Positions 10,201 to 46,351 are shown, numbered from the stretch's first letter. The stretch: DNA of 51,559 nt from Candidatus Aminicenantota bacterium (GCA_016934475.1 JAFGST010000010.1:1-51559), one strand, 5' to 3'. A program made the numbers and translations. Notes: generated by a model not told the origin, from the letters alone.

Positions 10201-10394
10201 ACGATCCGCACCTGGCAGATGTTGGGGAATTGGTAGCCGCCGGGGATGACCTGGAGCAGCTGGGTGAAGATCTCGGACAAAGGCAGGTTGGTCCTGGTGA
10301 GAAGCTCCTCGACCTGGTACAGGCAGTTCAGTTCCTTGGCCCGCTCGCGCATGTCGTGGAGCAGCTTGTCGATCGGGTTTTGCGAATTGTTCAT
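7212..10394 (-). CDS. Sensory N-terminus + PEP/pyruvate-binding (PPDK_N) domain + C-terminal nucleotidyltransferase domain
   Basis: RLGGKSAGLFLAQK, PLIVRSSSLLEDRMG, LILMGPGRWGSR-type block (FILMGPGRWGSRGDIKLGVPVTYSDF), C-terminal YVFGSTKNATAGPGSDIDLLIHF (GS...DxD nucleotidyltransferase signature). Confidence 0.8.
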   Translation of the reverse strand: MNNSQNPIDKLLHDMRERAKELNCLYQVEELLTRTNLPLSEIFTQLLQVIPGGYQFPNICQVRIVHEDHTYQSPGFTPSTRVQRVDIKEEEKVIGFIEVSYTRDVPQTENSYFLKDEQKLLQTIAERIGRTVLHFKLEQVSREWETAQKDLSDKIKKEWMVVIDLLRRTDQNLYIHLGRKMVYHLFWNGVMEAKELLKSLSKDQGAAQTEMSDDMNRPSQKKSQLELLELSDKTFRIAARYLSDSDILGRIQKWIQEDKASFLSRAINNIDMPLVDVINAITHYHYISGGTYELSPPMEKGLRVSLIRRFFSDQLDFINIAKNHIEVRHFYDLVQRIIYPANGYGRLGGKSAGLFLAQKILTKPGDHSEVLCELKFPKTWYITTDAILNFLSYNNLEEVNEQKYKEIDQIRLEYHNVVQLLKNAHFPIEIIKGLSMALDDLGNKPLIVRSSSLLEDRMGMAFSGKYKSLFLANQGTKQERLDALTDAIAEVYASIFGPDPIEYRAERGLLDFHEEMGIMIQEVVGQKVGDYYLPAFAGVAFSNNEFRWSPRIKREDGLARLVPGLGTRAVDRVSDDYPILISPGIPNLRVNVTADETMRYSPRRIDVINLKTCSFESMEITALLTECGSQYPGIENIVSVYEDDHIYSPSALGLDFSKANLFVTFEGWISRTPFVKQLQCMLKTLQEKMSTPVDIEFAHDGRQLYLLQCRPQSSTAGNVASLIPKDIAEDRIIFTANRYISNGKLPDITHIVYVDPENYSLLERSEQMIEVGQAVGKLNKLLPKRRFILMGPGRWGSRGDIKLGVPVTYSDFNNTAALIEIARKKGNYVPELSFGTHFFQDLVESSIRYLPLYPDDPGIIFNERFLLDAQNYFPDILPESAALADTIRVIEVPRAASGRVLRVLMNADLGEALGFLATPDSQASAERERVEVSETASDDHWGWRLRMAERIAGQLDPGRFGVKAMYVFGSTKNATAGPGSDIDLLIHFQGSERQKQELVLWLEGWSLCLAEINYSRTGYKSGGLLDYHLLTDEDIAKKTSFAVKIDAATNAARPLALKSQ

Positions 10395-21634: not shown

Positions 21635-23002
21635 TCAAGGCAGCAGCTGGTACTTTTTGATCTTGGACAGCAGGTTGACCCGCGATATCCCAAGAATCTT
21701 CGCCGCCTGGCTCTTGTTCCCCTTGGTGTGGCCAAGGATCCGCCGGATGTGCTCTTTCTCGATCTCGCTCAGTGATTTCAGGGCCTGGCCGCTGTCGGAC
21801 GTCTCCTGGATGCGGGAGTTCTCCAGGAAGTAGTGCGGGAGCGATTTCTTGTGCAGCTCGCTCCCGCTTTCGATGATGACGGCGCTGTTGATGATGTTCA
21901 TCAGCTCGCGGACATTTCCGGGGAAATCGTATTGTTTCAGCAGGCGCATGGCGCCCTCGGAGAGCTTCTGGATGGCTTTCTCGTTCTGCTCGTTGTACCT
22001 TTCCAGGAAGTACTGGCACAGCAGCGGGATGTCGCCCTTGCGCTCGCGCAGCGGCGGAAGGTAGACGGAGCTCATGTTCAAGCGATAAAAGAGGTCCTTG
22101 CGGAAATTCCCCTTCTTCATCTCGCTGAGAAGGTCCTTGTTGGTGGCGGCGATGATGCGCACGTCCACTTTCTGGTTCTTGGTCGATCCCAGCCGGAAAA
22201 ATTCCCCCTCCTGGAGAACCCGCAGCAGCTTCACCTGGATGGGAAGGGCCAGTTCGCCGATCTCGTCGAGGAACAATGTGCCCTTGTCGGCTTCTTCCAG
22301 GAAGCCTTTCTTGGCCGCGCTGGCACCGGTGAAGGCGCCCTTGTCGTGGCCGAAGAACTCGGAGGCGAACAGCTCGTTGGCGAAAGTTCCGGCGTTGACG
22401 GCGACGAAATGCTCGTCGCGGCGCCGGCTGATGCGGTGGATGGCCTTGGCGATCAACTCCTTGCCCGTTCCGCTTTCTCCCCAGATCAGGATGCTGTTGT
22501 CGGGCTGGGCCATCTTCTCGACCATCTGGAACAGCTTGATCATATCGTCGTCCTGGGTGATGATCTCCTGGAAGGCCTCCTTGAATTTCAGCTGGTCCAG
22601 GGATACGGCGGCTTCGGAGGCGGTCGCCCCCCGGGCGCCGCGGGTTTCCAGCACCGAGGTGATGATCTTCAGGAGCTGGTCGTTGTCGACGGGCTTGGTC
22701 AGGTAGTCGAAGGCGCCGAGCTTCATCGCCGAGACGGCCAGTTCCACGTCCTCCACGCCGGTGAGCACGATGGTCTCGATGTCGATGTTCCTGTCCTTGA
22801 TGAACTTCAGGATGTCCAGGCCGGTCACTTCGGGCATGTCCATGTCCAGCAGCAGGAGGTCGTAGCTGTTCTTGCGCAATTCCTGGAGGGCCTTGCTGCT
22901 GTTGGCCAGCACGGTGACTTCGTAGGCCCCGGTCTGCAGCAGCATGATGTTCAGGTAGTTCAGTACCGCCTGGTCGTCGTCGATGGCCAAGATCTTCTTC
23001 AT
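21635..23002 (-). CDS. Sigma-54-dependent response regulator (NtrC family)
   Basis: REC (LAIDDDQAVLNYL...LLLDMDMPEVTG), AAA+ with GESGTGKELIAKAIH, GAFTGA, and Fis-type HTH at the C-terminus. Confidence 0.95.
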   Translation of the reverse strand: MKKILAIDDDQAVLNYLNIMLLQTGAYEVTVLANSSKALQELRKNSYDLLLLDMDMPEVTGLDILKFIKDRNIDIETIVLTGVEDVELAVSAMKLGAFDYLTKPVDNDQLLKIITSVLETRGARGATASEAAVSLDQLKFKEAFQEIITQDDDMIKLFQMVEKMAQPDNSILIWGESGTGKELIAKAIHRISRRRDEHFVAVNAGTFANELFASEFFGHDKGAFTGASAAKKGFLEEADKGTLFLDEIGELALPIQVKLLRVLQEGEFFRLGSTKNQKVDVRIIAATNKDLLSEMKKGNFRKDLFYRLNMSSVYLPPLRERKGDIPLLCQYFLERYNEQNEKAIQKLSEGAMRLLKQYDFPGNVRELMNIINSAVIIESGSELHKKSLPHYFLENSRIQETSDSGQALKSLSEIEKEHIRRILGHTKGNKSQAAKILGISRVNLLSKIKKYQLLP

Positions 23003-25107
23003 GGCGTTGCCCTCGGCGCGAGCGGAATGTGGATCGAGAACGTCGTGCCCGCCCCAACCTTGCTGTCCACCGCGATCCGTCCCTTGTGGTCCTTGATGAT
23101 CCCGTAGGCGATCGACAGTCCCAGCCCGGTGCCGCCCTGGTTCCTCTTGGTGGTGAAGAAAGGATCGAAGATCTGCTTGAGCGTCTTTTCGTCGATGCCG
23201 CTGCCGTTATCACGGATCTGAAGCAGGTTTTCGTTTTCCTTTTCCAGGTACTCGGTGCGGACGGCGATCGAGCCCATCTTTTTCTCGATGGCCTGCGAGG
23301 CGTTGATCAGGATGTTGACCAGAACCTGCTCCAGGCGCTGGAAGTTGCCCTTGATTCTCGGGAGGCGCTCGTCCAGCTCCAGCGTGACTTTGGCCTTGCG
23401 CCCGATCTGGTTGGAGACCAGGCGCAGGCAGCTATGGATGATCTCGTTGAGGTCCACCTCGTCGTTCAGCACGCCGTCGTCCCGCTTGGCGAACTTGCGC
23501 AGGCCGTCGACGATGGCCTTGATGCGGTTGGCTCCCTGGGCCATGTCTTCCAGCAGGATCAAAATGTTGCTGCGGAAAACGTCGTAGTTCAGGCGGGCGA
23601 TCTGCAGGTTCCCCTTCTTGCTGGAGTGTTCGTCAAGAATGGGCAGGATGTCCTTCATCGCCTCCTGGATGATCGACACGTTGCCGCGGATGAAGGTGTT
23701 GGGATTGTTGATCTCGTGGGCGATGCCCGAGACCAGCTGGCCCAGCGAGGCCAGCTTGTCGGTCTGCATCAGCTGCAGCTCCATGTTTTTCTGCTTGGTG
23801 ATCAGGCGCGAGAATTCCAGCACGCCATCCACCTCTCCCCGCTCGTCGAAGATCGGGTAGGCCTGCAGCAGGTAGTAATCGTCGGCGATCTTTTCCTCCA
23901 GGGTGATGGATTTTCTCTGCTGGAAGGCCATGGCTCCCGGGCAGGGCTGGCAGGGCTGGGAGCGGCCGAAGATCTTGGCGTAGCATTTGCCGTCGTGATT
24001 GCCCTCCTTGCGATTGGCCATCTTGACGTTGAAGTCGCGATCGATCATGACCACCTGGTCGGTGATGGCGTCGAAGAGCGTCTGCAGCTTGTTCCAGCTC
24101 TCCTTCAGCTTCTCGGTGAGCGAAACGAGTTCCTCGTTTTTGTGGATCAGCAGGTCCTTTTGCATTTCCAGGTCGGCCGTCCTGGCCTGGACGATCTTTT
24201 CCAGGTTTTCGTTTTGCTTGATCAGCTCCTGCTCCAGTTCCTTGCGCAGGCGGATGTCCTTGTAGACCTCCTCGATGCAGCGCCGGCCGTCGAAGTCGAC
24301 GAGAATGAACGAGCCGATGACCGGGCATTGCTTGCCCCGGGAATCGATCAGGCTCATCTCCATTCCCTCCAGGAATCCCTTTTCCTTCAGCTTTTTGAAA
24401 ATAAAGGGGCGGATGAGCGGGATGTTGGCGTACAGCTTGTCCTTGACGAAGTTCAGGTGGACCGATCCGTCCTCGGGGTAGTGCAGCATGCGATAGAAGG
24501 CGCGGTTGGCCTTGAGGATGTCGCCGTTCAGCTCGGAGATGACGATGCCGTCGGGCGCGTTCTCGAAAAGGTCCTCGAAGCGCTTCGTCGACTTTTCCAG
24601 CTCCCGGGTCTTGTCCTTGACCATTTCCTTCAACTTGCCGACGTACTTTTGCAGCTCCAGTTGCAGTTCGTGCTTCTCGACCGCCTTGGAGATCATGCGG
24701 CCGATCTCCCCGATGAGCTTCTTTTCCTCCTCGAGGAACTCGCCTTTCTCCCGGTACGCGACCTGGGCGTATCCCCTGGGAAGCCCGTTGACCACGATGT
24801 CGGCCCGGATGGCGCTGACGATGTCGGCGCAGTGGTTCTTGCCGCCGGGATAGCGGGTTCGATCCAGCATAATGCAGCCGCGCGCCTTCTCCGGATACTG
24901 GAATCCCTTTACCAGGTGCGAAGCGGACTGCTCCAGGACCTGTTTGAGCCCCTTGCCCGCCTCGATCTGGGAACTGATGATATAGAGGCACTCCAGTTCC
25001 TTGATCCGCTCCTTGAGGTCGTGCTCGAGCTTGCGGGCGCACTCGATGCATTCCTTCCGCTGGGGCTGCTTCTGCACCCTGGCCGTCGTCTTGCTGCCTT
25101 TTGCCAC
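22999..25107 (-). CDS. PAS-domain sensor histidine kinase
   Basis: H-box LGQLVSGIAHEINNPNTFI, N-box VLVNILINASQAI, G-boxes DNGSGID and GGTGLGLSIAYGI; overlaps the response regulator by 4 bp. Confidence 0.95.
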   Translation of the reverse strand: MAKGSKTTARVQKQPQRKECIECARKLEHDLKERIKELECLYIISSQIEAGKGLKQVLEQSASHLVKGFQYPEKARGCIMLDRTRYPGGKNHCADIVSAIRADIVVNGLPRGYAQVAYREKGEFLEEEKKLIGEIGRMISKAVEKHELQLELQKYVGKLKEMVKDKTRELEKSTKRFEDLFENAPDGIVISELNGDILKANRAFYRMLHYPEDGSVHLNFVKDKLYANIPLIRPFIFKKLKEKGFLEGMEMSLIDSRGKQCPVIGSFILVDFDGRRCIEEVYKDIRLRKELEQELIKQNENLEKIVQARTADLEMQKDLLIHKNEELVSLTEKLKESWNKLQTLFDAITDQVVMIDRDFNVKMANRKEGNHDGKCYAKIFGRSQPCQPCPGAMAFQQRKSITLEEKIADDYYLLQAYPIFDERGEVDGVLEFSRLITKQKNMELQLMQTDKLASLGQLVSGIAHEINNPNTFIRGNVSIIQEAMKDILPILDEHSSKKGNLQIARLNYDVFRSNILILLEDMAQGANRIKAIVDGLRKFAKRDDGVLNDEVDLNEIIHSCLRLVSNQIGRKAKVTLELDERLPRIKGNFQRLEQVLVNILINASQAIEKKMGSIAVRTEYLEKENENLLQIRDNGSGIDEKTLKQIFDPFFTTKRNQGGTGLGLSIAYGIIKDHKGRIAVDSKVGAGTTFSIHIPLAPRATP

Positions 25108-25114
25108 GGGGATA

Positions 25115-28100
25115 TTATAGCACCAATTTGCTTTTGATTTTTGTTCTCAGGTAGTTTTCGCTGGAGAGTAGCGGCTGTTTCTCGCGGCTGTGGATGGCCA
25201 GGTCGATGGCCAGGGGGAGAAAGTGGGCCTTGCCTCCCGCAGTGGCGAACGTTTCCCTGAAGAGCCGACCTCCCCAAAAACCGCCGTCGGCGACCTCTCG
25301 GTAATAGGGATTGGCCTCGGTGATCTCCCGGAAGACTGCGGCGGCATCGATGTCCTGAAGGGGCTGGCCGGTAAGCTGGGCCAGCCTGCCGATGACTTCC
25401 AGGTTGGTCATGCCGCTGCGCGCCGGCAGGAGCGCGGCGCAGCGCTGGACGCGCCGGTCGCAGGCGGTGTAGGTGCCGTCGCTTTCCAGTGGGGTCGACA
25501 TGGGCAGGATGACATCGGCCTCGGCGGCGCTGGCCGTCAGAAAAAAGTCGGCCACGAGCTTGAATTCCACCGCGGACAGCAGGCTCCCGGCTCCACTGGC
25601 GGCCAGGGGATCCTCGCCGAAGACCAAAAGCGCCTTCACCTCGCCCTTCTTCAACCTGGCGGCCAGGTCGACCGGCGTAAATATCCTCTCCAGGGGGGCC
25701 TTCCACATGGCGCTCAAGTGGGCAATCCCGTCCTGGCCGGGGCGGACGAAACCGGGCAGCCAGCGGGGATCACATCCCATGTCGAGGAGTCCCTGGGCAT
25801 TGGCGTAGTCGCGGATGAGCAGCAGGCCGTTTCCGGGCTTGCCGGATTTTCCCAGCAGCAGCATCAGGTTCCCCAGGGCCTTCAGCTCGTCGCGCGATCG
25901 TTCCAGGTATTCGTCCATGCCGTAGACAATCACCAGGTTGGGCGACCCGGCCAGCAGCTCGACGACGCGCTCGAATTTCTCCTTTTCCATGGCCGTTTTG
26001 GCCAGGGCTTGCTTGGGGCCCAGCTTGACGATCGAGGCCTGGAATTGCGCGAAGTCTTCGCAGCGGCGCTCGATGAACTCCCGGTCGATGACCCCCTTCT
26101 TGATCAGGGCGCCGGCGATGCCCGCCAACAGGGAGGTGTTGCTGCCCCGCTTGGGATCGAGCCACAGGTCGGCGATTTTGCTGAGAGTGTTTTCCGATGA
26201 GCTGATGGAGACCAGGCGGGCCCCCCTCTTGATCGCCTCCTTGATCTTCAGTTCGGCCACCAGGTTGTTCTCGGTCAGCTCGGCGTTCACGACCAGGATG
26301 ACATCGGCCTTGGCCAGATCGTCCATCGTCGTTGTGGAGGTCGTGAACCCGAGCATATCGTCGAGGGCGTCGAGTTCGTGTCCGTCAAACATGTTGCTGA
26401 AGCTGCCGATCATATTGGTTTGCCAGCCGGAGCGCACCCATTTCTGTAGCAGGTACAGCTCCTCGTTGGCCATGCGCGGGGAGGCGAATACGGCCACGGA
26501 CTCGGTCCCATGCGCCTGAATGACGGCCTGGATCCTGGCGGCGGCGAGGGTGAGCGCCTCGTCCCAGGACGCTTCCCGAAGTCCGTTCCCCTTCTTGACC
26601 CGGGGCGCGAGCAGGCGTCCTTTGTCCAGCATGTAGCGGTAGCCGAAGCGTCCTTTGTGGCAAAGGTAGCCCTTGTTGTGCGAGTCGCCGTTGACCGCCG
26701 CGACGGCAAAGGTGTCCCGATCGAAGATCTTGTACTGCAGCACGCAGCCGACGGAGCAGAAGTGACAAATCGAATCGGCTCTCCGGGCGGCCCAGGGTCC
26801 GGGTTTGGCGAACGGCAGGCTCTCGGCGATGGCGCCGGTGGGACAGGCGGCGATGCAATTGCCGCAGGAGATGCAGTTGGTTTCCAGAAGCTTTTTCTCC
26901 ATGGAGGGACGCACCACCGATTTGAAGCCGCGGTAGACGAAGCCCAGCGCCGAGACTTGGAGGACCTCCGAACAAGTGCGGACGCAACGGCCGCAGGCGA
27001 TGCATTTGTTCGGATCCAGCGTGATGAAGGGATGGCCCTTGTCGACCTTGTATTTTCTCACTTCACCGACGAATTTGGTGATGTCCACGCCAAAATCCAC
27101 GGCGTGCTTGCGCAGAGCGCAGTCGAAATACGCCGAGCAGCCGCATTCCAGGCAGCGGCCGGCCTCGTTTTGCGCCTGCTGCGGGGTGAAGCCCCTTTCT
27201 ACCTCCTCGAAGGTCTTGCCTCTGGATGCGGCCGGCAGTTCCGGCATTTTTTCCTTCGCGATCTTCGCGAAGTCGGCGAAATCGCTGTCGGGGATATCGC
27301 CGAAGGCCTCCTTGCGGCTGATGAATTCAGCCGTGCGGGCCTCGGCCTTGCCGTTGCGGACGTATTGATCGATGGACTCGGCGGCGCGCCTGCCCTGGGC
27401 GATGGCGTCAATGGCCACGGCCGGCCCGGTGGCCATGTCGCCGCCGACGAACACCCCTGGGATCGACGTTGCGAAAGTGCCTTCGTCGTAGACGGGGGTA
27501 TTATGACGGGTCGACTGCAGCCGCGGGTCCTTTTGCAGGCCGCACAGGTCGACGTCCTGGCCGATGGCCGAGATGACGAAGTCACAGGGCAGGCGGTACT
27601 CGGAATTCGCCAGCGGCACGGGGCTGCGCCGGCCGCTGGCATCGGGCTCTCCCAGCTCCATGCGGATGCAGGTCAGTGCCTGCAGCCGGCCGTTCTCCTG
27701 CAGCAGCTCGGTCGGTGCCGAAAGCTGGACCAGTTCGACGCCCTCCTCGAGGGCGGCCTCGATCTCCATGGAATGAGCCGGCATCTCCTTGCGCGTGCGG
27801 CGGTAGAGCAGCGTCACCTTGTCGGCTCCGAGCCTGAGGGCGGTGCGGGCGGCATCGATGGCCGTGTTGCCTCCACCGACCACGACGACCGTGCCGTAGA
27901 TCTCGGGCTTCTTTTCCCCCTGGAGCTGCCAGAGGAAATCGATGCCGCCCAGGACCCCGGTGATCTGGTCTTCGCCCGCCAGACGCATGCCCTTTGCCTT
28001 CTGGGCCCCGAAGGCAAGGAAAATGGAGTCATAGCCCTGCTTTTTGAGATCGTCGAGAGTGAAGTCCCGTCCCAGGGCGCTGCTGGTCTTCAGCGTTACT

Positions 28101-28867
28101 CCCAGGCCAGTGATCCAGCCGATCTCCTTGTCCAGCAGCTCTTTGGGCAGGCGGTACTCGGGGATGCCGTAGCGTAGCATGCCCCCGAGTGCCGGCGCTT
28201 TCTCGAAGAGGGTGACGGCGTATCCCTTGAGAATCAGGTAATAGGCGCAGGTCAGGCCGGCCGGCCCGCCGCCGACCACCGCCACCTTTTTACCGTTGGC
28301 CGGAGGCAGCGCCGGCGTCCAGGGATCTTCGATGTCGATGTCGGTGGCGTAGCGCTTCAGGTAGTCGATGCCCACGCGCTCGTCGACGCGGTTGCGGCGG
28401 CAGGCCACCTCGCATTCACGCACGCAGACGCGGCCGCAGACCAGGGGCAGGGGATTGGTCCTTTTGATCAGGCGAACCGCCTCGCGCTCCTTGCCCATGG
28501 CGATGAGGGCGATGTACCCCTGGACGTCGACGCCGGCCGGGCAAGTCTGCTGGCATGGAGCCAGGCAATCGGCGTAGTGGTTGGAGAGGAGCAGCTCCAG
28601 GGCGGTTTTCCGGGCCGCGCGGATGCGCGGATTGTCGGTGTGGACAACCATCTTGTCGGCGACCGGACTGGAGCACGACGGGATCAGCTTGGCGATCCCC
28701 TCGACCTCCACCACGCAGAGATAGCAGGAACCGTAGGGCGGGAGCTTCGGATCGTGGCACAGGGTCGGGATCTCGGCAAGGCGGTTCTCCTGGATGACCT
28801 CCAGGATGGTCTGCCCGGGCCGGGCAGTCACTTGCTTTCCATCGATATTGAGCGTGATCTTTTCCAT
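25115..28867 (-). CDS. Multidomain redox protein: NuoG-type 2Fe-2S N-terminus + GltD/NfnB-like FAD-NAD(P)H module + 2x[4Fe-4S] + molybdopterin-oxidoreductase-like domain
   Basis: CHDPKLPPYGSCYLC; CLAPCQQTCPAGVD...CGRVCVRECEVAC; VVGGGPAGLTCAYYL; VVGGGNTAIDAARTALRLGADKVTLLYRRTRKEMPA; CIACGRCVRTC; CISCGNCIAACPTGAI; SICHFCSVGC...GYLCHKGRFGYRY. Confidence 0.9.
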   Translation of the reverse strand: MEKITLNIDGKQVTARPGQTILEVIQENRLAEIPTLCHDPKLPPYGSCYLCVVEVEGIAKLIPSCSSPVADKMVVHTDNPRIRAARKTALELLLSNHYADCLAPCQQTCPAGVDVQGYIALIAMGKEREAVRLIKRTNPLPLVCGRVCVRECEVACRRNRVDERVGIDYLKRYATDIDIEDPWTPALPPANGKKVAVVGGGPAGLTCAYYLILKGYAVTLFEKAPALGGMLRYGIPEYRLPKELLDKEIGWITGLGVTLKTSSALGRDFTLDDLKKQGYDSIFLAFGAQKAKGMRLAGEDQITGVLGGIDFLWQLQGEKKPEIYGTVVVVGGGNTAIDAARTALRLGADKVTLLYRRTRKEMPAHSMEIEAALEEGVELVQLSAPTELLQENGRLQALTCIRMELGEPDASGRRSPVPLANSEYRLPCDFVISAIGQDVDLCGLQKDPRLQSTRHNTPVYDEGTFATSIPGVFVGGDMATGPAVAIDAIAQGRRAAESIDQYVRNGKAEARTAEFISRKEAFGDIPDSDFADFAKIAKEKMPELPAASRGKTFEEVERGFTPQQAQNEAGRCLECGCSAYFDCALRKHAVDFGVDITKFVGEVRKYKVDKGHPFITLDPNKCIACGRCVRTCSEVLQVSALGFVYRGFKSVVRPSMEKKLLETNCISCGNCIAACPTGAIAESLPFAKPGPWAARRADSICHFCSVGCVLQYKIFDRDTFAVAAVNGDSHNKGYLCHKGRFGYRYMLDKGRLLAPRVKKGNGLREASWDEALTLAAARIQAVIQAHGTESVAVFASPRMANEELYLLQKWVRSGWQTNMIGSFSNMFDGHELDALDDMLGFTTSTTTMDDLAKADVILVVNAELTENNLVAELKIKEAIKRGARLVSISSSENTLSKIADLWLDPKRGSNTSLLAGIAGALIKKGVIDREFIERRCEDFAQFQASIVKLGPKQALAKTAMEKEKFERVVELLAGSPNLVIVYGMDEYLERSRDELKALGNLMLLLGKSGKPGNGLLLIRDYANAQGLLDMGCDPRWLPGFVRPGQDGIAHLSAMWKAPLERIFTPVDLAARLKKGEVKALLVFGEDPLAASGAGSLLSAVEFKLVADFFLTASAAEADVILPMSTPLESDGTYTACDRRVQRCAALLPARSGMTNLEVIGRLAQLTGQPLQDIDAAAVFREITEANPYYREVADGGFWGGRLFRETFATAGGKAHFLPLAIDLAIHSREKQPLLSSENYLRTKIKSKLVL

Positions 28868-28880
28868 GGAGCTTTCCTCT

Positions 28881-30647
28881 TCAGTCCTTGACGATGGCGT
28901 TGAAATTGCAGGTCTCGAAACACTTACCGCATTTGATGCATGCGGCCGGGTCAATACGGTGCGGCTGTTTCTTCCCTCCCTGGATCGCCCCGACCGGGCA
29001 GACCCTGGCGCACAGGGTGCATCCCGTGCATTTGTCCTCCAGGATGAAGAAGGTCAGCAGCGGGCCGCAGCTGTGGGCCGGGCATTTCTTCTGGCGGATG
29101 TGGATCTCGTATTCGTCGCGAAAGTACTTCAGCGTGGTCAAGACCGGATTGGGCGCGGTCTGCCCCAGGCCGCAGATGGTGTTGCTGCGGATCTTCTCGG
29201 CCAGGTCCTCCAGAAGCTCGATGTCGCCCTCCCGGCCGCGGCCGTCGGTGATGCGCTCCAGGATCTCCAGCATGCGCTTCGTGCCGATGCGGCAAAAGGT
29301 GCATTTGCCGCAGCTCTCGTCCTGGGTGAAGCGCAGGAAGAACTTGGCCATCTCCACCATGCAGGTCGTCTCGTCCATGACCACCATGCCGCCTGAGCCC
29401 ATGATGGCCCCGGTCTTGTTGATCTGCTGGTAGTCAATCTGCAGATCGCCCATGCTTGCCGGGATGCAGCCGCCTGAGGGACCGCCCATCTGCACGGCCT
29501 TGAACTTCTTGCCGTCGCGGATGCCGCCGCCGATGTCGTAAATAATCTCCTTGATCGTGATCCCCATGGGCACTTCCACCAAGCCTCCGCGGGCGATCTT
29601 GCCGGCCAGGGCGAACACCTTGGTGCCCTTGCTGTTCTCGGTGCCCAGGGCGGCGAAGGCCGGGGCCCCGTTGGCGATGATCCAGGGAACGTTGGCATAG
29701 GTCTCGACGTTGTTGATGTTGGTCGGCTTGCCCCACAGGCCGCGCTGGGCGGGGAAAGGCGGGCGAAAGCGCGGCATGCCGCGCTGGCCCTCGATGGAGG
29801 CGATCAGGGCGGTCTCCTCGCCGCAGACAAAGGCTCCGGCTCCCTCCTTGATGTGGATCTTCAGGTTCATCGTGGAGCCGAAGATGCTCTTTCCCAGGAA
29901 TCCCCTCTTGCCGGCTTCTCGGATCGAGTGCCGCAGGCGGCGGACGGCCATGGGGTATTCGGCGCGGACGTAGATATAGGCCTCATCGGCCCCGCAGGCA
30001 TAGGCGCTGATCATCATTCCTTCCAGCACCGAGTGCGGATCGCCCTCCAGGGTGCTGCGGTCCATGAAGGCCCCCGGGTCGCCTTCGTCGGCGTTGCAGA
30101 TGATGTATTTCTTGTCGCCGGCCGCCTGGCGGCAGAAGCGCCATTTCAGGCCGGTCAGAAAGCCGGCGCCGCCGCGGCCGCGCAGGCCCGATTGCAGGAT
30201 GATCTCGGTGACCTCTTCGGGAGTGTATAGCTCCAGGGCCTTGCGGATGGATCCGTAGCCGCCACGGGCGATGTACTCGTCGATGGAGTCGGGATCGATG
30301 ACGCCGCAATTGCGCAGGACGATCCGTTTCTGCTTGGCGAAGAACGTATCCTCCTTCTCCTTGTCCAGGCCGCGGACGATCCATTCGGCGACGGGCTTGT
30401 CCTGCAGCACCTGCTCGTCCAGGATCCGCTTCACTTTGTCGGGCGTGACGTTCCCGTACATGGTTTCGCGCCCGTCCTCATCGATGACCTCGAGCAGGAC
30501 TTCCTGATAGCAGTTTCCCTTGCAGCCGGTCTCCATCAGCCGCACCGGGATCTTCTCCTTGGCGATCTCGCTCTTCAGGGCGGCCAGCACCTTCTCCCCG
30601 CCCGCCGAGACGCCGCAGGTGCCTAGGCCGATTTTTATGGTTTTCAT
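28881..30647 (-). CDS. NuoF/HydB-like flavoprotein subunit with C-terminal 2x[4Fe-4S]
   Basis: GLRGRGGAGFLTGLKW, CNADEGDPGAFMDR, ESCGKCTFCRIGTKRM, C-terminal CTGCTLCARVCPVGAI and CIKCGKCFETCNFNAI; N-terminal thioredoxin-like Fe-S region. Confidence 0.93.
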   Translation of the reverse strand: MKTIKIGLGTCGVSAGGEKVLAALKSEIAKEKIPVRLMETGCKGNCYQEVLLEVIDEDGRETMYGNVTPDKVKRILDEQVLQDKPVAEWIVRGLDKEKEDTFFAKQKRIVLRNCGVIDPDSIDEYIARGGYGSIRKALELYTPEEVTEIILQSGLRGRGGAGFLTGLKWRFCRQAAGDKKYIICNADEGDPGAFMDRSTLEGDPHSVLEGMMISAYACGADEAYIYVRAEYPMAVRRLRHSIREAGKRGFLGKSIFGSTMNLKIHIKEGAGAFVCGEETALIASIEGQRGMPRFRPPFPAQRGLWGKPTNINNVETYANVPWIIANGAPAFAALGTENSKGTKVFALAGKIARGGLVEVPMGITIKEIIYDIGGGIRDGKKFKAVQMGGPSGGCIPASMGDLQIDYQQINKTGAIMGSGGMVVMDETTCMVEMAKFFLRFTQDESCGKCTFCRIGTKRMLEILERITDGRGREGDIELLEDLAEKIRSNTICGLGQTAPNPVLTTLKYFRDEYEIHIRQKKCPAHSCGPLLTFFILEDKCTGCTLCARVCPVGAIQGGKKQPHRIDPAACIKCGKCFETCNFNAIVKD

Positions 30648-30668: not shown

Positions 30669-31187
30669 TCAGTCGGTCTGGGCGTGCTCGGCTTTCGTCT
30701 TGTATTCCTTCAATAGTTGCTGGACTTTCTTGGGCGTCAGGCGCCCGTAGGTTTCGTCATTGATGGTGATGACCGGGGATAGGGAGCAGCAGCCGAGGCA
30801 AGCCACCTTCTGCAGGGTGAACAGCCCGTCCTCGGTTGTGTCGCCCCCGCTGATCTGCAGCTCGTCCTCGATGACGCCGGCGATCCGTTCCGAGCCGTTG
30901 ACGTGGCAGGCGGTGCCGTCGCAGACCTTGATCAGGTATTTTCCCAGCGGCTTGAGGCGGAACTGGGAGTAGAACGTGATCACGCCGTAGATGTCGGCCG
31001 CCGGCAGGCCGACGATCTCGCTGATCTGATCGATGGCCGATTCGGGGATGAATCCGTAGGTGTCCTGGGCGGCTTGCAGCAGGGGGATCAGGGCGCCCCT
31101 TTCCCCCTCGTAGCTCCACAATTCGACCTTGAAACCGGCAAGGCCGTTCCGTTTCCTTGGGGCATTCAGCTCTTCATTGGCTTTCAT
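30669..31187 (-). CDS. NuoE-like [2Fe-2S] subunit
   Basis: LIPLLQAAQDTYGFIPESAIDQIS, VCDGTACHVNGSE, VACLGCCSLSPVITINDETYG. Confidence 0.93.
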   Translation of the reverse strand: MKANEELNAPRKRNGLAGFKVELWSYEGERGALIPLLQAAQDTYGFIPESAIDQISEIVGLPAADIYGVITFYSQFRLKPLGKYLIKVCDGTACHVNGSERIAGVIEDELQISGGDTTEDGLFTLQKVACLGCCSLSPVITINDETYGRLTPKKVQQLLKEYKTKAEHAQTD

Positions 31188-31211: not shown

Positions 31212-32222
31212 TTACATTTCAAACAGCTTGATGATCGGGGTCTCCTTGATGCGCAGCACGCCGTCGAGGGGCTTGATCTTGGACTGGATGACGCGATCGA
31301 TCTCGGCGAAGCTGGCTCCCTGCATCAGCAGAACCATATCGTACTTGCCATGAAGGCAGTCGCTGGAGACGACGTGGTCGTTCATGTACAGGGTGGGATA
31401 GATGGTTTCCAGCTTGTCTTTGTCGATCTCCAGGAAGACGTAGGAGGAGGCGCTTTTCCAGAAATTGGCGTTGTTGACAGCCTCCGGGTTCCCCTTTTCC
31501 CGACCCAGGGCCTTGTCGACGGTGCCGATGATGTTGCCGACGCTCTCGGGGAGGTGCGGCGACTCGACCGGCAGGAAGACGACTTCCCGCACGCCGGGGA
31601 GCTTGTGGATCTTGTTCTCCACCAAGGCCTGGATGTCGGACAGGGTTTCCGCCTGCAGCAGCAAGCCCAGGTCATGATCGCCCTTGAGGGCATCGCAGTA
31701 CAGCACGTTGTCCATGAAATACAATTCTTGATAGATATCGGTCAGGTTGGCTTCAGAAGCAAAATTCAGCAGGGCGTAGGCGCTGACCGCCTTCTTCTCG
31801 CCGGGGATCTCCTGCTCCATCTCCTGGGGTGCGTCAGCCGGGGTTTTCAGGGGGAGGTCGTTCAGGATGTTGGCCAGCTCTTCGGCGGTGAAAGGCTTCT
31901 CCAGATAGGCGTCGGCTTTCTGCGAGCGGGCGTCGGCTTCGGTCGCGTCGCTTCCGTAGCCGGTGATGACCACCACGGGCAACTCGGGATAGTTGAATTT
32001 GATCACCTTGAGCAACTTGAGACCGTCGATGTCGGGTAGGCGCACGTCGACCACCACATAATTGAGATCTTTTTGCTTTTGCTTGAACGCTTCCAGTGTT
32101 TTCAGGCCGCACATTCCGCTTTCGCAGGACTCGGTCTCAAACCCCTTTTGCAGCAAGCCCAGGGCCAGGCTCCGCTGCAGCGAAGATTCGTCGTCGATCA
32201 ACAGGATCTTTTTTTCTTTCAT
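31212..32222 (-). CDS. Response regulator: REC domain + two Lrp/AsnC ligand-binding-like repeats, no recognised DNA-binding domain
   Basis: KILLIDDESSLQRSL, YVVVDVRLPDIDG, VVVITGYG, EKPFT; then two similar segments LYFMDNVLYCDALKGDHDLGLLLQAETLSDIQALVENKIHKLPGV and LYMNDHVVSSDCLHGKYDMVLLMQGASFAEIDRVIQSKIKPLDGV. Confidence 0.85.
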   Translation of the reverse strand: MKEKKILLIDDESSLQRSLALGLLQKGFETESCESGMCGLKTLEAFKQKQKDLNYVVVDVRLPDIDGLKLLKVIKFNYPELPVVVITGYGSDATEADARSQKADAYLEKPFTAEELANILNDLPLKTPADAPQEMEQEIPGEKKAVSAYALLNFASEANLTDIYQELYFMDNVLYCDALKGDHDLGLLLQAETLSDIQALVENKIHKLPGVREVVFLPVESPHLPESVGNIIGTVDKALGREKGNPEAVNNANFWKSASSYVFLEIDKDKLETIYPTLYMNDHVVSSDCLHGKYDMVLLMQGASFAEIDRVIQSKIKPLDGVLRIKETPIIKLFEM

Positions 32223-32416
32223 CTTTATGCTCCTTAGTTCTTTAATTTCAGGGGCTTTCGCTTCCCTGTAAAACAATAAGCAAGAGGGATGCCAAATCGG
32301 AAAAGCCAATATTTACTGTGGTTCTTGCTTGTTCAACGCTTTCCCCATGGGAGCGTTTTGCTTCGATATTTTACAGTTTTTAGGCAAAAGTGCCATCCAG
32401 TCAGGGCTTTTTGACT

Positions 32417-32433: not shown

Positions 32434-32633
32434 CTTTACGAATGGCCAGAATCCCTTATCCAGTAAGACTTTTACGCTGCTAAAATATTTGCTGTATATT
32501 TTTTTGCTTGATTCTATTAGAATTGCATTTCAAAGGAGGGCGTTCTGGGCGGTTCATCTCCTTTTTCTCATGCAGATCGGCTTGAAATCGGGCGAGTTCT
32601 TTGCTACTTTAGGAGTCCGTGGAGGAAACGCCC

Positions 32634-33461
32634 ATGAACAAGGTCGTAGCCAAGGAATTCCTTTCGGACAACGTGGCCAGATTGGTCATCGAGGTCCCAC
32701 TCATCGCGAAGAAGCAGAAGCCGGGCCAGTTCGTCATTGTGCGCACCGACGATCGGGGGGAGCGTATTCCTCTGACGATCGCTGACGCCGACAAGGAGAA
32801 CGGGACCATCACCCTCATCGTCCAGAGGGTCGGTACCTCCTCGCACAAGATCTGCGATCTGAACGCCGGGGACGCGCTGCTGGATGTCTCCGGTCCCCTG
32901 GGTCGCCCCACGCATGTCGAGAAAGTGGGAACCGTGCTGGCCTGTGGCGGCGGCGTGGGCATTGCCCCTCTCTATCCAATCGCCAGGGCGTTCAAGGAGG
33001 CCGGCAACAGGCTCGTCACGGTGCTGGGTGCCCGCAGCCGAGATCTGCTGATCCTGGAAAAGGAGATGGCCGTGTTCGCCGATGAGCTGGTCGTCATGAC
33101 CGATGACGGCTCCTATGGCAAGAAGGGGCTGATTACGGCCGGCATCGAGGAAGTGCTGGTGCGCGAGCCCGTCCACCTGGTGGTGACCATCGGGCCGGCG
33201 GTGATGATGAAATTCGTCGCCCTGCTCACCAAGAAGCACAACGTCCCGACCATCGCCAGCCTGAACACAATCATGGTGGACGGGACCGGGATGTGCGGCG
33301 CCTGCCGGGTCACGGTCGGAGGAAGGACCCGCTTCGTCTGCGTCGACGGTCCCGAGTTTGATGCCCACGAGATAGACTACGACGAGATGATCAAGAGGCT
33401 GAACACCTATCAAAGGGAAGAACGCCTTTCCTATGACGCATTCCGGAAAACATCGCCCTGA
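32634..33461 (+). CDS. nfnA: NfnA-like ferredoxin-NADP reductase / sulfide dehydrogenase small-subunit family
   Basis: MNKVVAKEFLSDNVARLVIEVPLIAKKQKPGQFVIVR, CGGGVGIAPLYPIA, C-terminal MVDGTGMCGACRVTVGGRTRFVCVDGPEFDAHEID ([2Fe-2S] Cys set). Confidence 0.9.
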   Translation: MNKVVAKEFLSDNVARLVIEVPLIAKKQKPGQFVIVRTDDRGERIPLTIADADKENGTITLIVQRVGTSSHKICDLNAGDALLDVSGPLGRPTHVEKVGTVLACGGGVGIAPLYPIARAFKEAGNRLVTVLGARSRDLLILEKEMAVFADELVVMTDDGSYGKKGLITAGIEEVLVREPVHLVVTIGPAVMMKFVALLTKKHNVPTIASLNTIMVDGTGMCGACRVTVGGRTRFVCVDGPEFDAHEIDYDEMIKRLNTYQREERLSYDAFRKTSP

Positions 33462-33473
33462 AGGAGATCCATC

Positions 33474-34961
33474 ATGCCGGTTGATCTGCAGGAATTGAGC
33501 GCCGACAGGAACCAGGAGTGGAGAAACGAGCTGCGAAGCAAGTTGAGCGCCAAGGAGCGGAGCGCCTTGCCCCGCGTCCGCATGCCCGAGCTGGATCCCG
33601 GGCAGAGAAAAAAGGGCTTCGAGGAGGTCAACACCGGATTGAGCGCCGAGATGGCCGTCCAGGAGGCACGACGATGCCTGGACTGCGCCTCGCCCACGTG
33701 CATTTCCGGTTGCCCGGTGAACATCAATATCCCGGGATTCATCAAACTGATCGAAAAGGGGGATTTCCCGGCGGCGGCCAGGAAATTGAAGGAGACCAAC
33801 GCCCTGCCGGCCGTTTGCGGCCGGGTTTGTCCCCAGGAGATCCAGTGCGAGGCCAATTGCGTCTACCAGAGGATGAAAAAGCCGCCGGTGGCCATCGGCT
33901 ACCTGGAGAGGTTCGCCTCGGACTGCGAACGCCTTTCGGGAAACATCGCCATCCCGGCGATCGCCAGAGCGATCCCGCTGCAGGTCGCCGCCATCGGCTC
34001 CGGGCCGGCCAGCTTGACCTTCGCCGGCCTGATGGCCAAGCTGGGCTACCGCGTGACCGTCTTCGAGGCCCTGCATGAGCTGGCCGGGGTGCTGAGCTAC
34101 GGCATCCCGGAATTCCGCCTGCCCAAGAGCATCGTACGCTCGGAGATCGCCTATCTGGAGGCTATCGGCGTGGTCTTCGAAAGGAACGTGGTCGTCGGCA
34201 AGACCTTGACATTCGATGACATGAAAGGACAGGGATTCCGGGGATTCTTTATCGGCAGCGGCGCCGGTCTGCCGAAGTTCATGCACATCCCCGGCGAGAA
34301 TTCCATCGGCATCTACTCCTCCAACGAATACCTCACCCGCGTCAACCTGATGAAGGCCTACCAATTCCCCCGCTTCGACACGCCGATCGTCAGCGGCAGG
34401 CAGGTGGCGGTCATCGGCGGGGGCAACACGGCCATGGATTCGGTGCGCACGGCCGTCCGCCTGGGCGCCGAGAGGGCGATGATCGTTTATCGCCGCTCCG
34501 AGCAGGAAATGCCGGCCCGCATCGAGGAGGTGCACCATGCCAAGGAGGAAGGGGTCGAGTTCCTGACCCTGACCAATCCCGTCGCCTACCTCGCCGACGA
34601 GAACGGGCGGGTGAAGCAGATGCGGGTGCAGAAGATGGAGCTGGGAGCCCCCGACGATTCGGGGAGACGGCGGCCTGTGGTCATCGCCGGGTCCGAGTAC
34701 GCAATCGACGTGGACACGGTGGTCGTCGGCGTCGGCACCGATCCCAATCCCCTCATCCCGCAAACGGTCGGCGGTCTCGAGGTCACCAAGTGGGGGACCA
34801 TCGTGGTCAACGAAGAGACCATGCAGACCGCCGTGCCGGAGATATTCGCCGGCGGTGACATCGTCCGCGGCGGCGCGACCGTCATCCTGGCCATGGGCGA
34901 CGGGAAAAAGGCGGCCGAGTCCATGCACGCCTACCTGCAGCGTGGAACGAGCGCGACATGA
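33474..34961 (+). CDS. nfnB: NfnB-like NADPH-dependent glutamate-synthase-family flavoprotein
   Basis: CLDCASPTCISGCPVNINIPGF, CGRVCPQEIQCEANCV, GSGPASLTFAG, VIGGGNTAMDSVRTAVRLGAERAMIVYRRSEQEMPAR, IFAGGDIVRGGATVILAMGDGKKAA. Confidence 0.92.
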   Translation: MPVDLQELSADRNQEWRNELRSKLSAKERSALPRVRMPELDPGQRKKGFEEVNTGLSAEMAVQEARRCLDCASPTCISGCPVNINIPGFIKLIEKGDFPAAARKLKETNALPAVCGRVCPQEIQCEANCVYQRMKKPPVAIGYLERFASDCERLSGNIAIPAIARAIPLQVAAIGSGPASLTFAGLMAKLGYRVTVFEALHELAGVLSYGIPEFRLPKSIVRSEIAYLEAIGVVFERNVVVGKTLTFDDMKGQGFRGFFIGSGAGLPKFMHIPGENSIGIYSSNEYLTRVNLMKAYQFPRFDTPIVSGRQVAVIGGGNTAMDSVRTAVRLGAERAMIVYRRSEQEMPARIEEVHHAKEEGVEFLTLTNPVAYLADENGRVKQMRVQKMELGAPDDSGRRRPVVIAGSEYAIDVDTVVVGVGTDPNPLIPQTVGGLEVTKWGTIVVNEETMQTAVPEIFAGGDIVRGGATVILAMGDGKKAAESMHAYLQRGTSAT

Positions 34962-41637: not shown

Positions 41638-41666
41638 TTGACGGGTTTTCAATACTGTGATATATG
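41638..41666 (+). promoter_or_regulatory. Sigma-70-type promoter TTGACG-N17-TATATG for the five-gene operon
   Basis: TTGACG at 41638-41643, 17-nt spacer, TATATG at 41661-41666; RBS aaaggagg then ATG at 41700. Confidence 0.55.
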
Positions 41667-41699
41667 AATGGCGGATTATTGTCTAGAAAGGAGGCATAT

Positions 41700-42845
41700 A
41701 TGAGTCTTTCGGGGGAAAAAGCGCCGCAAAAGAGGTATCGCATCGCCTGGCTGCCCGGCGACGGCATCGGGATCGAGGTGCTGGCCGCGGCCAGGGTCGT
41801 CCTTGACAAACTGCATTTCACCGCCGAGTACGTCCACGGCGACATCGGCTGGGAGTTCTGGTGCAAGGAGGGCGACGCCTTCCCGCAGCGCACCATCGAC
41901 CTGCTCAAGAGCGTCGACGCGGCCATGTTCGGCGCCATCACCTCCAAGCCGGTCAAGGCGGCCGAGGCCGAGCTTGTGCCCGAGTTGAAGGGCCGGGGCC
42001 TCGTCTACCGCTCGCCGATCGTGCGCATGCGCCAGCTCTTCGACCTGTACAATTGCCTGCGCCCCTGCAAGGCCTATCCCGGCAATCCGCTGAACTTCAA
42101 GGAGAACATCGACCTGGTGGTCTTCCGCGAGAATACCGAGGACCTTTACTCCGGGGTGGAGTTCAACCAGGTGCCGCCCGAGCTGGCCGAGGTCCTGGCC
42201 AGGCTTTCCAAGCCCTTCGCGGCGTTCAAGGATCTTCCCGGCGACCAGTACGCCATCTCGACCAAGATCAATACCCGCAAGGGATCGGAGCGCATCATCC
42301 GCGAGGCCTTCGAGTTCGCCAAGAAGTTCGGCCGCAAGAAGGTCACCGTGGTGCACAAGGCCAACGTGGTGCGCGCCACCGACGGCCTGTTCCTGGAGAC
42401 CGCCAGGGAGGTGGCCCAGGGCTATCCCGAGATCCAGATGGACAACGCCAACATCGACGCCATGTGCATGTGGCTGCTGAAGAACCCCTTCAACTACGAT
42501 GTCCTGGTGGCCCCCAACCTCTACGGCGACATCATCTCCGACCTCTGCGCCCAGATGGTCGGCGGCCTGGGCTTCGGCTGCTCGGGCAACATCGGCGAGA
42601 AGCTGGCCGTCTTCGAGCCGACCCACGGCTCGGCGCCGAAATACTCCGGCCAGCAAAAGGTCAATCCCATCGCCACCATCCTGGCCGCCAAGATGATGCT
42701 CGACTGGCTCGGCGAGACCGAGATGGGCGCGCGGCTGGAGACCGCAACCGCCGCGGTGATCAAGGAAGGCAAGGTGCGCACCTACGACATGGGGGGGGCC
42801 AACAAGACGCTGGAGATGGCCGAGGCGATCGCCGCGAAGCTGTAA
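41700..42845 (+). CDS. Isocitrate/isopropylmalate dehydrogenase family (isocitrate-dehydrogenase-like)
   Basis: IAWLPGDGIGIEVLAAA, RSPIVRMRQLFDLYNCLRP, VVFRENTEDLYSGVEF, KANVVRATDGLFLE, NLYGDIISDLCAQMVGGLGF, FEPTHGSAPKYSGQQKVNPIA. Confidence 0.9.
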   Translation: MSLSGEKAPQKRYRIAWLPGDGIGIEVLAAARVVLDKLHFTAEYVHGDIGWEFWCKEGDAFPQRTIDLLKSVDAAMFGAITSKPVKAAEAELVPELKGRGLVYRSPIVRMRQLFDLYNCLRPCKAYPGNPLNFKENIDLVVFRENTEDLYSGVEFNQVPPELAEVLARLSKPFAAFKDLPGDQYAISTKINTRKGSERIIREAFEFAKKFGRKKVTVVHKANVVRATDGLFLETAREVAQGYPEIQMDNANIDAMCMWLLKNPFNYDVLVAPNLYGDIISDLCAQMVGGLGFGCSGNIGEKLAVFEPTHGSAPKYSGQQKVNPIATILAAKMMLDWLGETEMGARLETATAAVIKEGKVRTYDMGGANKTLEMAEAIAAKL

Positions 42846-42898
42846 ATCCCCGGCATCTTGCATGAACGCCGGGCAAGGGCGCAAAGGGAGGTCATTCA

Positions 42899-43819
42899 AT
42901 GAATGAGATCCGTATTCATGAAGTCGGCCTACGGGACGGGCTGCAGATCGAGAAGCAATCCGTGCCCCTGGAAAAGAAGGTCGAATGGGTGGAAGCCCTG
43001 CTGGCCGCCGGCGTCGGCATGATCCAGCTGGGTTCGTTCGTCAACCCGGAGAGGGTGCCGCAGATGGCCGACAGCGACAAGCTCTTCGCCCATTTCGGCC
43101 AGGCGGGACGAAAGCCGGTTACGGCCGTCCTGTCGGGGCTGGTGCTGAATGAAAAAGGGCTTGAGCGCGGCATGGCCTGCGGGGTCGACATGTTCTGCAT
43201 GGGGGTGTCGGCCAGCGAAACCCACAGCCGCAAGAACACGGGCAAGGGCACCGATGAGGCCATCGGTCAGATCGTCGCCATGGCCCAGGCGGCCCTGAAA
43301 TCCGGCAAGCGCGTCCAGGCCTCCATTCAGTCGGCGTTCGGCTGCGGCTTCGAGGGGCCCATGGCTCCCGAGAGGGTCTTGGCCATCGTCGACAGGTACC
43401 TGGAGGCGGGCATAGGCAATATCAGCCTGGCCGACACGGCGGGTCATGCCCACCCCCCCCAGGTGGAAGGCCTGTACGGGGAAATCCGCAAGCGCGACGG
43501 CAAGGCCGAGCTGGCCTGCCACTTCCACAACACCTACGGCCTGGGGCTGGCGAACTGCTATGCGGCCATGAGAGCCGGGGTGACGTATTTCGAGGCGGCG
43601 CTGGGCGGACTGGGCGGCTGCCCCTTCACCAAGGTGGCGGCGGGCAACGTCTGCAGCGAGGACCTGGTCCATTCCCTGCAGCGCCAGGGGCTGGCCATGG
43701 AGATCGACCTGGACAGGCTCACCGAGACCGCCCGCGATCTCGGCCGCTTCTTCGGCCGCGAGCTCCCCGGATTCATCCTCAAGGCAGGCTCCATCGTCCG
43801 TTTCAGGAAAACGCCATAA
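42899..43819 (+). CDS. HMG-CoA lyase-like acyl-CoA lyase
   Basis: IHEVGLRDGLQIEK, VSASETHSRKNTGK, HFHNTYGLGLANCYAAMRAGV, GGLGGCPFTKVAAGNVCSEDLVH. Confidence 0.9.
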   Translation: MNEIRIHEVGLRDGLQIEKQSVPLEKKVEWVEALLAAGVGMIQLGSFVNPERVPQMADSDKLFAHFGQAGRKPVTAVLSGLVLNEKGLERGMACGVDMFCMGVSASETHSRKNTGKGTDEAIGQIVAMAQAALKSGKRVQASIQSAFGCGFEGPMAPERVLAIVDRYLEAGIGNISLADTAGHAHPPQVEGLYGEIRKRDGKAELACHFHNTYGLGLANCYAAMRAGVTYFEAALGGLGGCPFTKVAAGNVCSEDLVHSLQRQGLAMEIDLDRLTETARDLGRFFGRELPGFILKAGSIVRFRKTP

Positions 43820-43831
43820 AGGAGTAACACC

Positions 43832-45025
43832 ATGAAATTACTGGAAAAGGTCAGGATCGTTGACCTGACCAATGTCCTTTCGGGACCGTTCTGCACCATG
43901 CACCTGGCCCTGCTGGGAGCCGAGGTGATCAAGGTGGAGAATCCCGAGGGGGGCGACCTCGCCCGCAAGCTGGGCAATGTCCCCGGCCTGAACAAGCAGC
44001 TGATGGGCACCAGCTTCCTGGCGCAGAACGCCAACAAGAAATCGCTCACCCTGAACCTGAAGCTCGACGAGGGCAAGGAGATCTTCCGCAAGCTGGTCGA
44101 GAGCGCCGACGTGCTGGTGGAGAATTTCCGCCCCGGCGTCATGGACCGCCTCGGCTTTTCCTATTCGAAGTTGTCGGAGATCAATCCGCGCTTGGTCTAC
44201 TGCGCCATCTCCGGCTTCGGCCAGACGGGGCCCGATGCCTTCAAGCCGGCCTACGACCAGATCATCCAGGGCCTGAGCGGGGTCATGGCCATCAACGGCG
44301 ATGAGCGCCTGAACCCGCTGCGCTGCGGATTCCCGGTCTGCGACACGGTCGGCGGCTTGAACGCGGCCTTCGCCATCATGGCCGCGCTTTATTACCGGGA
44401 GAAGAGCGGTCGCGGCCAGTTCATCGACATCGCTATGCTCGACTCGATCATGCCGCTGATGGGCTGGGTGGCGGCCAACCTGCTCATCGGCGGCCAGCAG
44501 CCGCTGCTTCTGGGCAACGACAACTTCACCGCCGCCCCATCGGGGGCCTTCGCCACCCAGGATGGCTACGTCAACATCGCCGCCAACCAGCAGAAGCAGT
44601 GGGAAGACCTGGCCGACGCCCTAGGCGTTCCGGAGCTGAAGAACGATCCCCGCTTCCAGGAGCGCGACACGCGGAAAGGCAACCGCAAGCTGCTGACTCC
44701 CCTGCTGGAGGCCAGGCTGAAGGAGAACACGACCGCCTACTGGGTCGACCTGCTCAACGACCGGGGCATCCCCTCCGGCGACATCGTCGGCCTGGAGGCG
44801 GCACTGACCTCGGAGCAGGCCCGGCACCGGCAGGTCATCGAGGAGGTCAAGGAGGAGGGGATCGGAACCATCAAGATCTTCAACCTGACCGCCAAGTTCT
44901 CGGAAACCCCGGCCGGGATCGATGCCCCGCCGCCGCGCCTGTCGGCCCATACCGCGGAGATCCTCGAGGGGCTGGGCTACAGGAAAGAGGACGTCAAGGC
45001 GTTCAAGGAAAAAGGCGCGATCTGA
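43832..45025 (+). CDS. Family III (CaiB/BaiF) CoA-transferase
   Basis: VRIVDLTNVLSGPFCTMHLALLGAEVIKVENPEGGD, DVLVENFRPGVMDRLG, AISGFGQTGPD, CDTVGGLNAAFAIMAALYYREKSGRGQFIDIAMLDS. Confidence 0.93.
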   Translation: MKLLEKVRIVDLTNVLSGPFCTMHLALLGAEVIKVENPEGGDLARKLGNVPGLNKQLMGTSFLAQNANKKSLTLNLKLDEGKEIFRKLVESADVLVENFRPGVMDRLGFSYSKLSEINPRLVYCAISGFGQTGPDAFKPAYDQIIQGLSGVMAINGDERLNPLRCGFPVCDTVGGLNAAFAIMAALYYREKSGRGQFIDIAMLDSIMPLMGWVAANLLIGGQQPLLLGNDNFTAAPSGAFATQDGYVNIAANQQKQWEDLADALGVPELKNDPRFQERDTRKGNRKLLTPLLEARLKENTTAYWVDLLNDRGIPSGDIVGLEAALTSEQARHRQVIEEVKEEGIGTIKIFNLTAKFSETPAGIDAPPPRLSAHTAEILEGLGYRKEDVKAFKEKGAI

Positions 45026-45054
45026 GCGCCGCCACAACACAAGGAGGAACCACC

Positions 45055-46347: not shown

Positions 46348-46351
46348 CAAA

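Follow-up and report, generated by a model that had tools for sequence, protein, structure and literature searches.

The window, our name for the whole stretch of DNA analysed here, spans 51,559 nucleotides of Candidatus Aminicenantota bacterium (GCA_016934475.1 JAFGST010000010.1:1-51559) and is contig C150 in a draft genome of 2.57 Mb. Its minus strand carries an open reading frame (ORF) for a protein of 1250 aa, with an ATG at 28867 and a stop at 25115. Sequence comparisons indicate with high confidence that this protein is StnC, which together with the adjacent StnA and StnB would form an electron-bifurcating transhydrogenase of the Stn (Nfn-Bfu/Nfn-ABC) type, and that its FdhF-like domain is inactive. 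Among solved structures, the strongest sequence matches were 9bov_A (E 2e-271, residues 3-1032) and 8oh5_C, an StnC (E 9e-242). In Foldseek the former is annotated as Caldicellulosiruptor saccharolyticus Nfn-ABC (PDB 9BOV/9BP5) and the latter as Sporomusa ovata StnABC (PDB 8OH5/8OH9). An AlphaFold 2 model of residues 570-1250 (predicted local distance difference test score, 80.5) also had 9bov_A as its best match in the Protein Data Bank (PDB), making Nfn-ABC the best match by both sequence and fold; 8oh5_C ranked seventh, among formate dehydrogenases (FDHs). A study from 2020 presented StnC as a fusion of GltD and NuoG (PMC7483475), and the S. ovata structure was solved in 2023, when the FdhF-like domain of StnC was called catalytically inactive (PMC10482914). 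The fusion of these modules in a single polypeptide is therefore already known, and the present case only widens the range of this enzyme to take in an uncultured lineage.

The genes that adjoin stnC agree with this assignment. Pfam and family profiles identified an stnB-like gene (28881..30647, minus strand; 588 aa), encoding a HydB/NuoF-type bifurcating subunit, and an stnA-like gene (30669..31187, minus strand; 172 aa), encoding a NuoE/HydC-type 2Fe-2S protein. The StnB-like protein has a Trx-like N-terminus, FMN/NADH and 4Fe-4S features, a Cx4C motif and two C-terminal 4Fe-4S clusters, and thus the bifurcating cluster set. Its Cys pattern is that of StnB from Desulfosporosinus sp. BG, which PMC7483475 lists among the members of Stn. 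In contrast, the non-bifurcating FDH beta subunit from the same family of genomes (L109) lacks the Trx-like N-terminus and the two C-terminal clusters. The order stnA-stnB-stnC is found in the window, in Desulfosporosinus sp. BG (L096) and in most other loci examined. At three loci (L046:9001-13077, L099:8992-13107 and L104:8989-13080) the StnC homologue is split into two adjacent frames (~820 + 543 aa), with the break inside the half that holds the molybdenum (Mo) domain.

The Pfam domains of the 1250-aa protein lie in the order Fer2_4 (2Fe-2S, residues 2-79), Fer4_20 (GltD 4Fe-4S, 101-180), Pyr_redox_2 (FAD/NAD(P)H, 193-492), Fer4_Nqo3 (two 4Fe-4S, 613-680), Molybdop_Fe4S4 (Mo-enzyme 4Fe-4S, 697-746) and Molybdopterin (PF00384, 751-1149). 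The N-terminal 2Fe-2S and GltD Fer4_20 region (residues 1-193; 28289..28867, minus strand) contains H97, C101, C105, C109, C148, C152, C156 and K171. The two-Rossmann FAD/NADPH domain of the GltD part (residues 193-492; 27392..28291, minus strand) has conserved R239 and R356-R357, and the FdhF-like Mo domain (residues 697-1250; 25118..26779, minus strand) keeps the 4Fe-4S ligands C701, C704, C708 and C736. Orthologues of the same length occur in 10 species of the genus, with 71-77% identity overall, 78-98% in the GltD region and 57-66% in Mo domains II/III.

Conservation was assessed by aligning 88 StnC-like proteins, on which all counts out of 88 are based. Twenty-six Cys are present in 86-88 of these proteins, H97 in 87 and K171 in all 88, as is the equivalent of R239. 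The window protein retains all 28 ligands (26 Cys, H97 and K171), as many as one 2Fe-2S and six 4Fe-4S clusters should require when the assignment of ligands to individual clusters is left aside. Its K171 is the counterpart of K170 in S. ovata StnC, a ligand near the FAD that was described as strictly conserved (PMC10482914). The original prediction, made from the DNA sequence, had described one 1250-aa ORF at 25115-28867 with a 2Fe-2S N-terminus, GltD-type Fe-S, FAD and NAD(P)H motifs and two 4Fe-4S clusters, and had likened it to the fused subunit of the Sporomusa-type transhydrogenase. The ORF and its motifs were recovered, including the quoted stretch TNMIGSFSNMFDGHELDALDDMLG. The matches to solved homologues and the near-invariance of the Fe-S ligands support both the fusion of a GltD/NfnB module with a NuoG/FdhA-like protein and the likeness to Stn.

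To what extent the Mo domain has decayed was examined by alignment with FDHs. The active-site Cys-His pair of FDHs aligns with F827-D828 of the window protein (26389-26384, minus strand), as had been predicted from the lack of Cys or Sec at this place. Across the StnC homologues, 18 different residues occupy the active-site column, with Cys in 2 only. The equivalent of K44 is kept in 47/88 and that of R333 in 30/88, although the four Cys of the neighbouring 4Fe-4S cluster are kept in 88/88. A catalytic Cys, Sec or Ser at a shifted position was looked for by alignment; no Cys or Sec-His pair lay close to the loop in the window protein or in 14 family relatives. The window protein stops ~31 residues past the GKAHFLPL motif, whereas true FDHs run ~130 residues further, and Molydop_binding (PF01568; domain IV) was not found in it among the best 25 of the 27 Pfam families listed. 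The predicted full-length molybdopterin-oxidoreductase-like domain thus proved to lack its C-terminal dinucleotide-binding domain. The accompanying proposal of a non-catalytic site held up, because the active-site residues are lost, the loop is variable and domain IV is missing. As judged from these comparisons, the FdhF-like domain is vestigial and carries no active Mo/W site.

Three points weigh against this assignment. In arsenite oxidase no protein residue ligates the Mo, and pterin binding is compatible with the sequence. The Mo domain of the window protein reaches as much as 213 bits when compared with catalytic FDHs, above its scores of 157 with StnC and 184 with Nfn-ABC, which suggests that it is less decayed than the studied domains, including that of S. 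ovata. Finally, Val replaces C114 of S. ovata StnC, where a C114A variant lost 50% of activity; the replacement by Val was also remarked on by the authors of that study (PMC10482914).

The window enzyme can be compared with the systems already described. It shares with S. ovata StnABC the three-gene order, the domain order of StnC and the Fe-S ligands, and S. ovata StnC likewise has conserved K170 and R239 and an FdhF domain without the Cys/Sec-His pair (PMC7483475, PMC10482914). It differs from S. ovata StnC in being ~80 residues longer, in the C114 position and in a Mo domain nearer to true FDHs. Schut et al. placed Stn in their Type 1 Nfn-Bfu class (PMC9304861). Nfn-ABC and the Nfn-Bfu of Thermococcus sibiricus follow the same Type 1 Bfu logic with an NADP(H)-binding BfuA, although T. 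sibiricus BfuA has no cluster A4 and falls short of StnC by ~200 residues (PMC9304861). NAD-dependent FDH alpha subunits (6TG9, 7VW6) and NuoG share the 2Fe-2S, 4Fe-4S and Mo-domain folds; neither has the GltD insert, and FDH alpha keeps the Cys/Sec-His pair and domain IV.

In S. ovata, electrons follow the path C7-C6-C5-C4-C3 and then enter StnB. Clusters C1 and C2 lie outside this path yet are required for assembly, which is blocked by deleting the FdhF domain of StnC or by losing the C1/C2 cysteines (PMC10482914). This mechanism is very likely shared by the window enzyme, since all ligands as well as StnA and StnB are conserved. By analogy with the S. ovata work, NADPH would reduce the FAD in the GltD part of StnC, and single electrons would pass through the GltD 4Fe-4S clusters to the N-terminal 2Fe-2S cluster, then to one NuoG-type 4Fe-4S cluster and on to StnB. 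There the FMN would bifurcate electrons to NAD+ and ferredoxin, with the reverse direction making NADPH. The FdhF-like domain is probably a formate dehydrogenase remnant that has been retained, with its 4Fe-4S clusters, for assembly.

A second transhydrogenase is encoded beside the stn genes and divergently from them. Pfam and family profiles identified nfnA (32619..33461, plus strand; 280 aa) and nfnB (33474..34961, plus strand; 495 aa), the latter a complete GltD-type bifurcating subunit. The 1250-aa ORF was itself considered as an NfnB and rejected, the NfnAB pair being separate (32619-34961). NfnAB (NADH-dependent ferredoxin:NADP+ oxidoreductase) shares with StnC the GltD/NfnB fold and the FAD and NADPH sites. 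However, it lacks NuoG/FdhF or StnAB parts, and bifurcation takes place at the FAD of NfnB but not at that of StnC. The divergent arrangement is found in the window and in nine further loci of the genus (L112-L120), that is in 10/10 with enough flank; one of these (L120) shows nfnA alone before the contig ends. The pairing extends to Aegiribacteria, with a co-directional nfnAB upstream of the gene that precedes stnA, and to a Fermentibacterales contig with nfnB upstream (L033, L037, L048 and L056 for the two groups). Such proximity could mean that Stn does not work as a transhydrogenase on its own but forms a supercomplex with NfnAB or is functionally coupled to it. This appears very unlikely, as nfnAB is located away from stn in other genera of the family (e.g. 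G017, G023, G024) and a search for sigma-54 sites found no -24/-12 element upstream of nfnA to match that of the stn operon. Earlier work reported Stn and Nfn to be almost mutually exclusive among acetogens (PMC7483475), S. ovata having no nfn, and Stn-type enzymes and Nfn to be exclusive in Thermococcaceae (PMC9304861). The window and its relatives show that the two can adjoin within one genus, where they may serve under different conditions. Elsewhere in the same genome, L132:5551-13758 (G000:C89) holds NfnA-like, NfnB-like, NuoG-like (787 aa, with a reduced Mo domain) and NuoF/HydB-like genes, together with Fe-hydrogenase C-terminal/FeS genes that are possibly sensory.

An NADPH-linked formate dehydrogenase, or some other molybdoenzyme whose unusual active site lacks a Cys/Sec ligand, is a still less probable identity for the 1250-aa protein. 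The Mo domain does align with FDHs across ~500 residues (E 1e-62 to 1e-52), the equivalents of K44 and R333 are both present in the window protein, and two fused relatives (L070 and L087) have an intact Cys-His pair and domain IV. On the other side, both the Cys/Sec and the His are gone from an unconserved loop, domain IV is absent, the R333 equivalent is missing from several species of the same genus, and the corresponding domain of StnC was reported to be inactive (PMC10482914). A soluble Fe(III) reductase with both SfrAB subunits fused was rejected as equally improbable: the N-terminal 635 residues match NF009454 (PRK12814, 657 aa, GltD-like with an N-terminal 2Fe-2S), a family that appears to represent SfrB, with a score of 682.8 bits, but this falls below the curated cut-off of 916, StnA and StnB genes lie directly upstream, and the nearest sequences are Stn and Nfn-ABC. 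The likeness to Geobacter SfrAB put forward in the original prediction, and drawn for StnC in PMC7483475 with both SfrA and SfrB, is sound as regards architecture, with 2Fe-2S and GltD modules in SfrB and a NuoG/FdhA-like module in SfrA. SfrAB is nevertheless made of two polypeptides and is not the nearest relative of the window protein.

With the window protein taken as an StnC, we asked how its active site was lost. In a tree of Mo domains, 60 StnC proteins without the Cys-His pair formed one clade (Shimodaira-Hasegawa-like approximate likelihood ratio test support 99; 98 once L082 was added), which stands apart from FDHs and from the two fused relatives, L070 (Thermodesulfovibrionales) and L087 (Thermoleophilia). 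These retain the sequence CARLCH as well as domain IV. The sequences are most simply explained by a single loss of the Cys-His pair in a fused ancestor, because the two fused relatives keep it, though the tree leaves the positions of their branches unfixed. StnC would then document the conversion of a formate dehydrogenase into a scaffold, the active site having survived in the fused relatives. The two relatives are fused 2Fe-2S/GltD/NuoG proteins of 1384 aa (L070:1111-5352) and 1397 aa (L087:8980-13185). StnA and StnB genes were not found in the flanks examined at these loci, and the proteins are possible candidates for single-chain NADPH-linked formate dehydrogenases.

The stn genes belong to a run of six minus-strand genes that lie 8-24 bp apart or overlap by 4 bp. 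The first encodes a protein of 337 aa (31212..32225, minus strand) in which Pfam finds a receiver (REC) domain and an Lrp/AsnC (RAM) domain; the domain search gave no helix-turn-helix (HTH) match in this REC-RAM protein. It is followed by stnA, stnB and stnC, then by a PAS histidine kinase of 702 aa (22999..25107, minus strand), which starts 8 bp after stnC, and by an NtrC-family sigma-54 response regulator of 455 aa (21635..23002, minus strand), whose gene overlaps that of the kinase by 4 bp. A motif in the PAS region of the kinase, CYAKIFGRSQPCQPCP, may be a redox or metal site. The same gene order was found in Coatesbacteria, Bacteroidota, Krumholzibacteriota, Thermodesulfobacteriota, an unclassified bacterium (L038) and a proteobacterium, and near a contig end in Elusimicrobia, where the NtrC gene is not seen. 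Pfam confirmed both the REC and the AsnC/RAM domain at six such loci, with the RAM match at L035 slightly under the cut-off. REC-RAM fusions without HTH were noted in the window and in L029, L030, L035, L047, L107 and L033, beside stnA wherever neighbours are visible.

The REC-RAM loci occupy a single region of the StnC tree, where the enclosing group of 27 rows has a support of 91, and Firmicutes (Sporomusa-type) stn loci lack REC-RAM genes. Among 109 genomes across the phylum, full-length REC-RAM proteins occur in 5, all within the 12 that have StnC (hypergeometric 6.8e-6, a value that ignores kinship, three of the five being one genus). In 41 close genomes they are likewise confined to those that bear stn.

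A -24/-12 promoter of the sigma-54 type, TGGCATCCCTCTTGCT, is predicted at 32279..32294 (minus strand), ~70-100 bp upstream of the REC-RAM start. No match to the strict pattern TGGCACRNNNNTTGCW, with one mismatch permitted, was found within the window; the site, a TGGCAT variant, was recovered by aligning the loci of the genus, in which its position is conserved. An element occupies the same position in 10/10 loci tested from the genus, as well as in Coatesbacteria (L029) and two relatives from another genus (L121, L122). The chance of finding each in shuffled sequence was ~0.00-0.02, and 1/47 control regions upstream of stnA had one. No such site was found upstream of REC-RAM in L030, L035, L038, L047, L060, L107 or the Aegiribacteria and Fermentibacterales loci. 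The promoter is therefore not general to the signalling lineage. The gene for sigma-54, rpoN, was found as two partial pieces on two contigs.

Collectively, these results suggest that the REC-RAM protein, the kinase and the NtrC regulator control the stn operon through the conserved promoter. More broadly, we put at roughly even chances a distinct Stn lineage that spans several phyla, both candidate and established, and has its own circuit of a ligand-sensing REC-RAM protein, a soluble PAS kinase and an NtrC activator, with a sigma-54 loop in the lineage of the window, and in which the genera that pair stn with nfnAB switch between the two bifurcating transhydrogenases on a small-metabolite or redox signal. 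A conserved signalling module of this kind could reveal the signal that controls bifurcating transhydrogenases. The signalling operon sets the window apart from S. ovata, and signalling genes are not mentioned for Nfn-ABC or T. sibiricus Nfn-Bfu in the parts of PMC9304861 consulted. Regulation by Rex and HydS has been proposed for the hnd hydrogenase operon (PMC10084766). The signalling operon and the pairing with nfnAB may be new: no description of them was found in the literature searched, which is weak evidence as subscription journals lay largely outside it, and a search for response regulators that join receiver and Lrp/RAM domains gave no matching paper.

Other genes in the window were noted by eye. 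Two large proteins (3304-6312 and 7212-10394) resemble PEP-synthase/phosphotransferase domains joined to signalling domains. At 41664-46852 there is an apparent cluster of isocitrate/isopropylmalate dehydrogenase-, HMG-CoA-lyase-, CoA-transferase- and aconitase/LeuCD-like genes.

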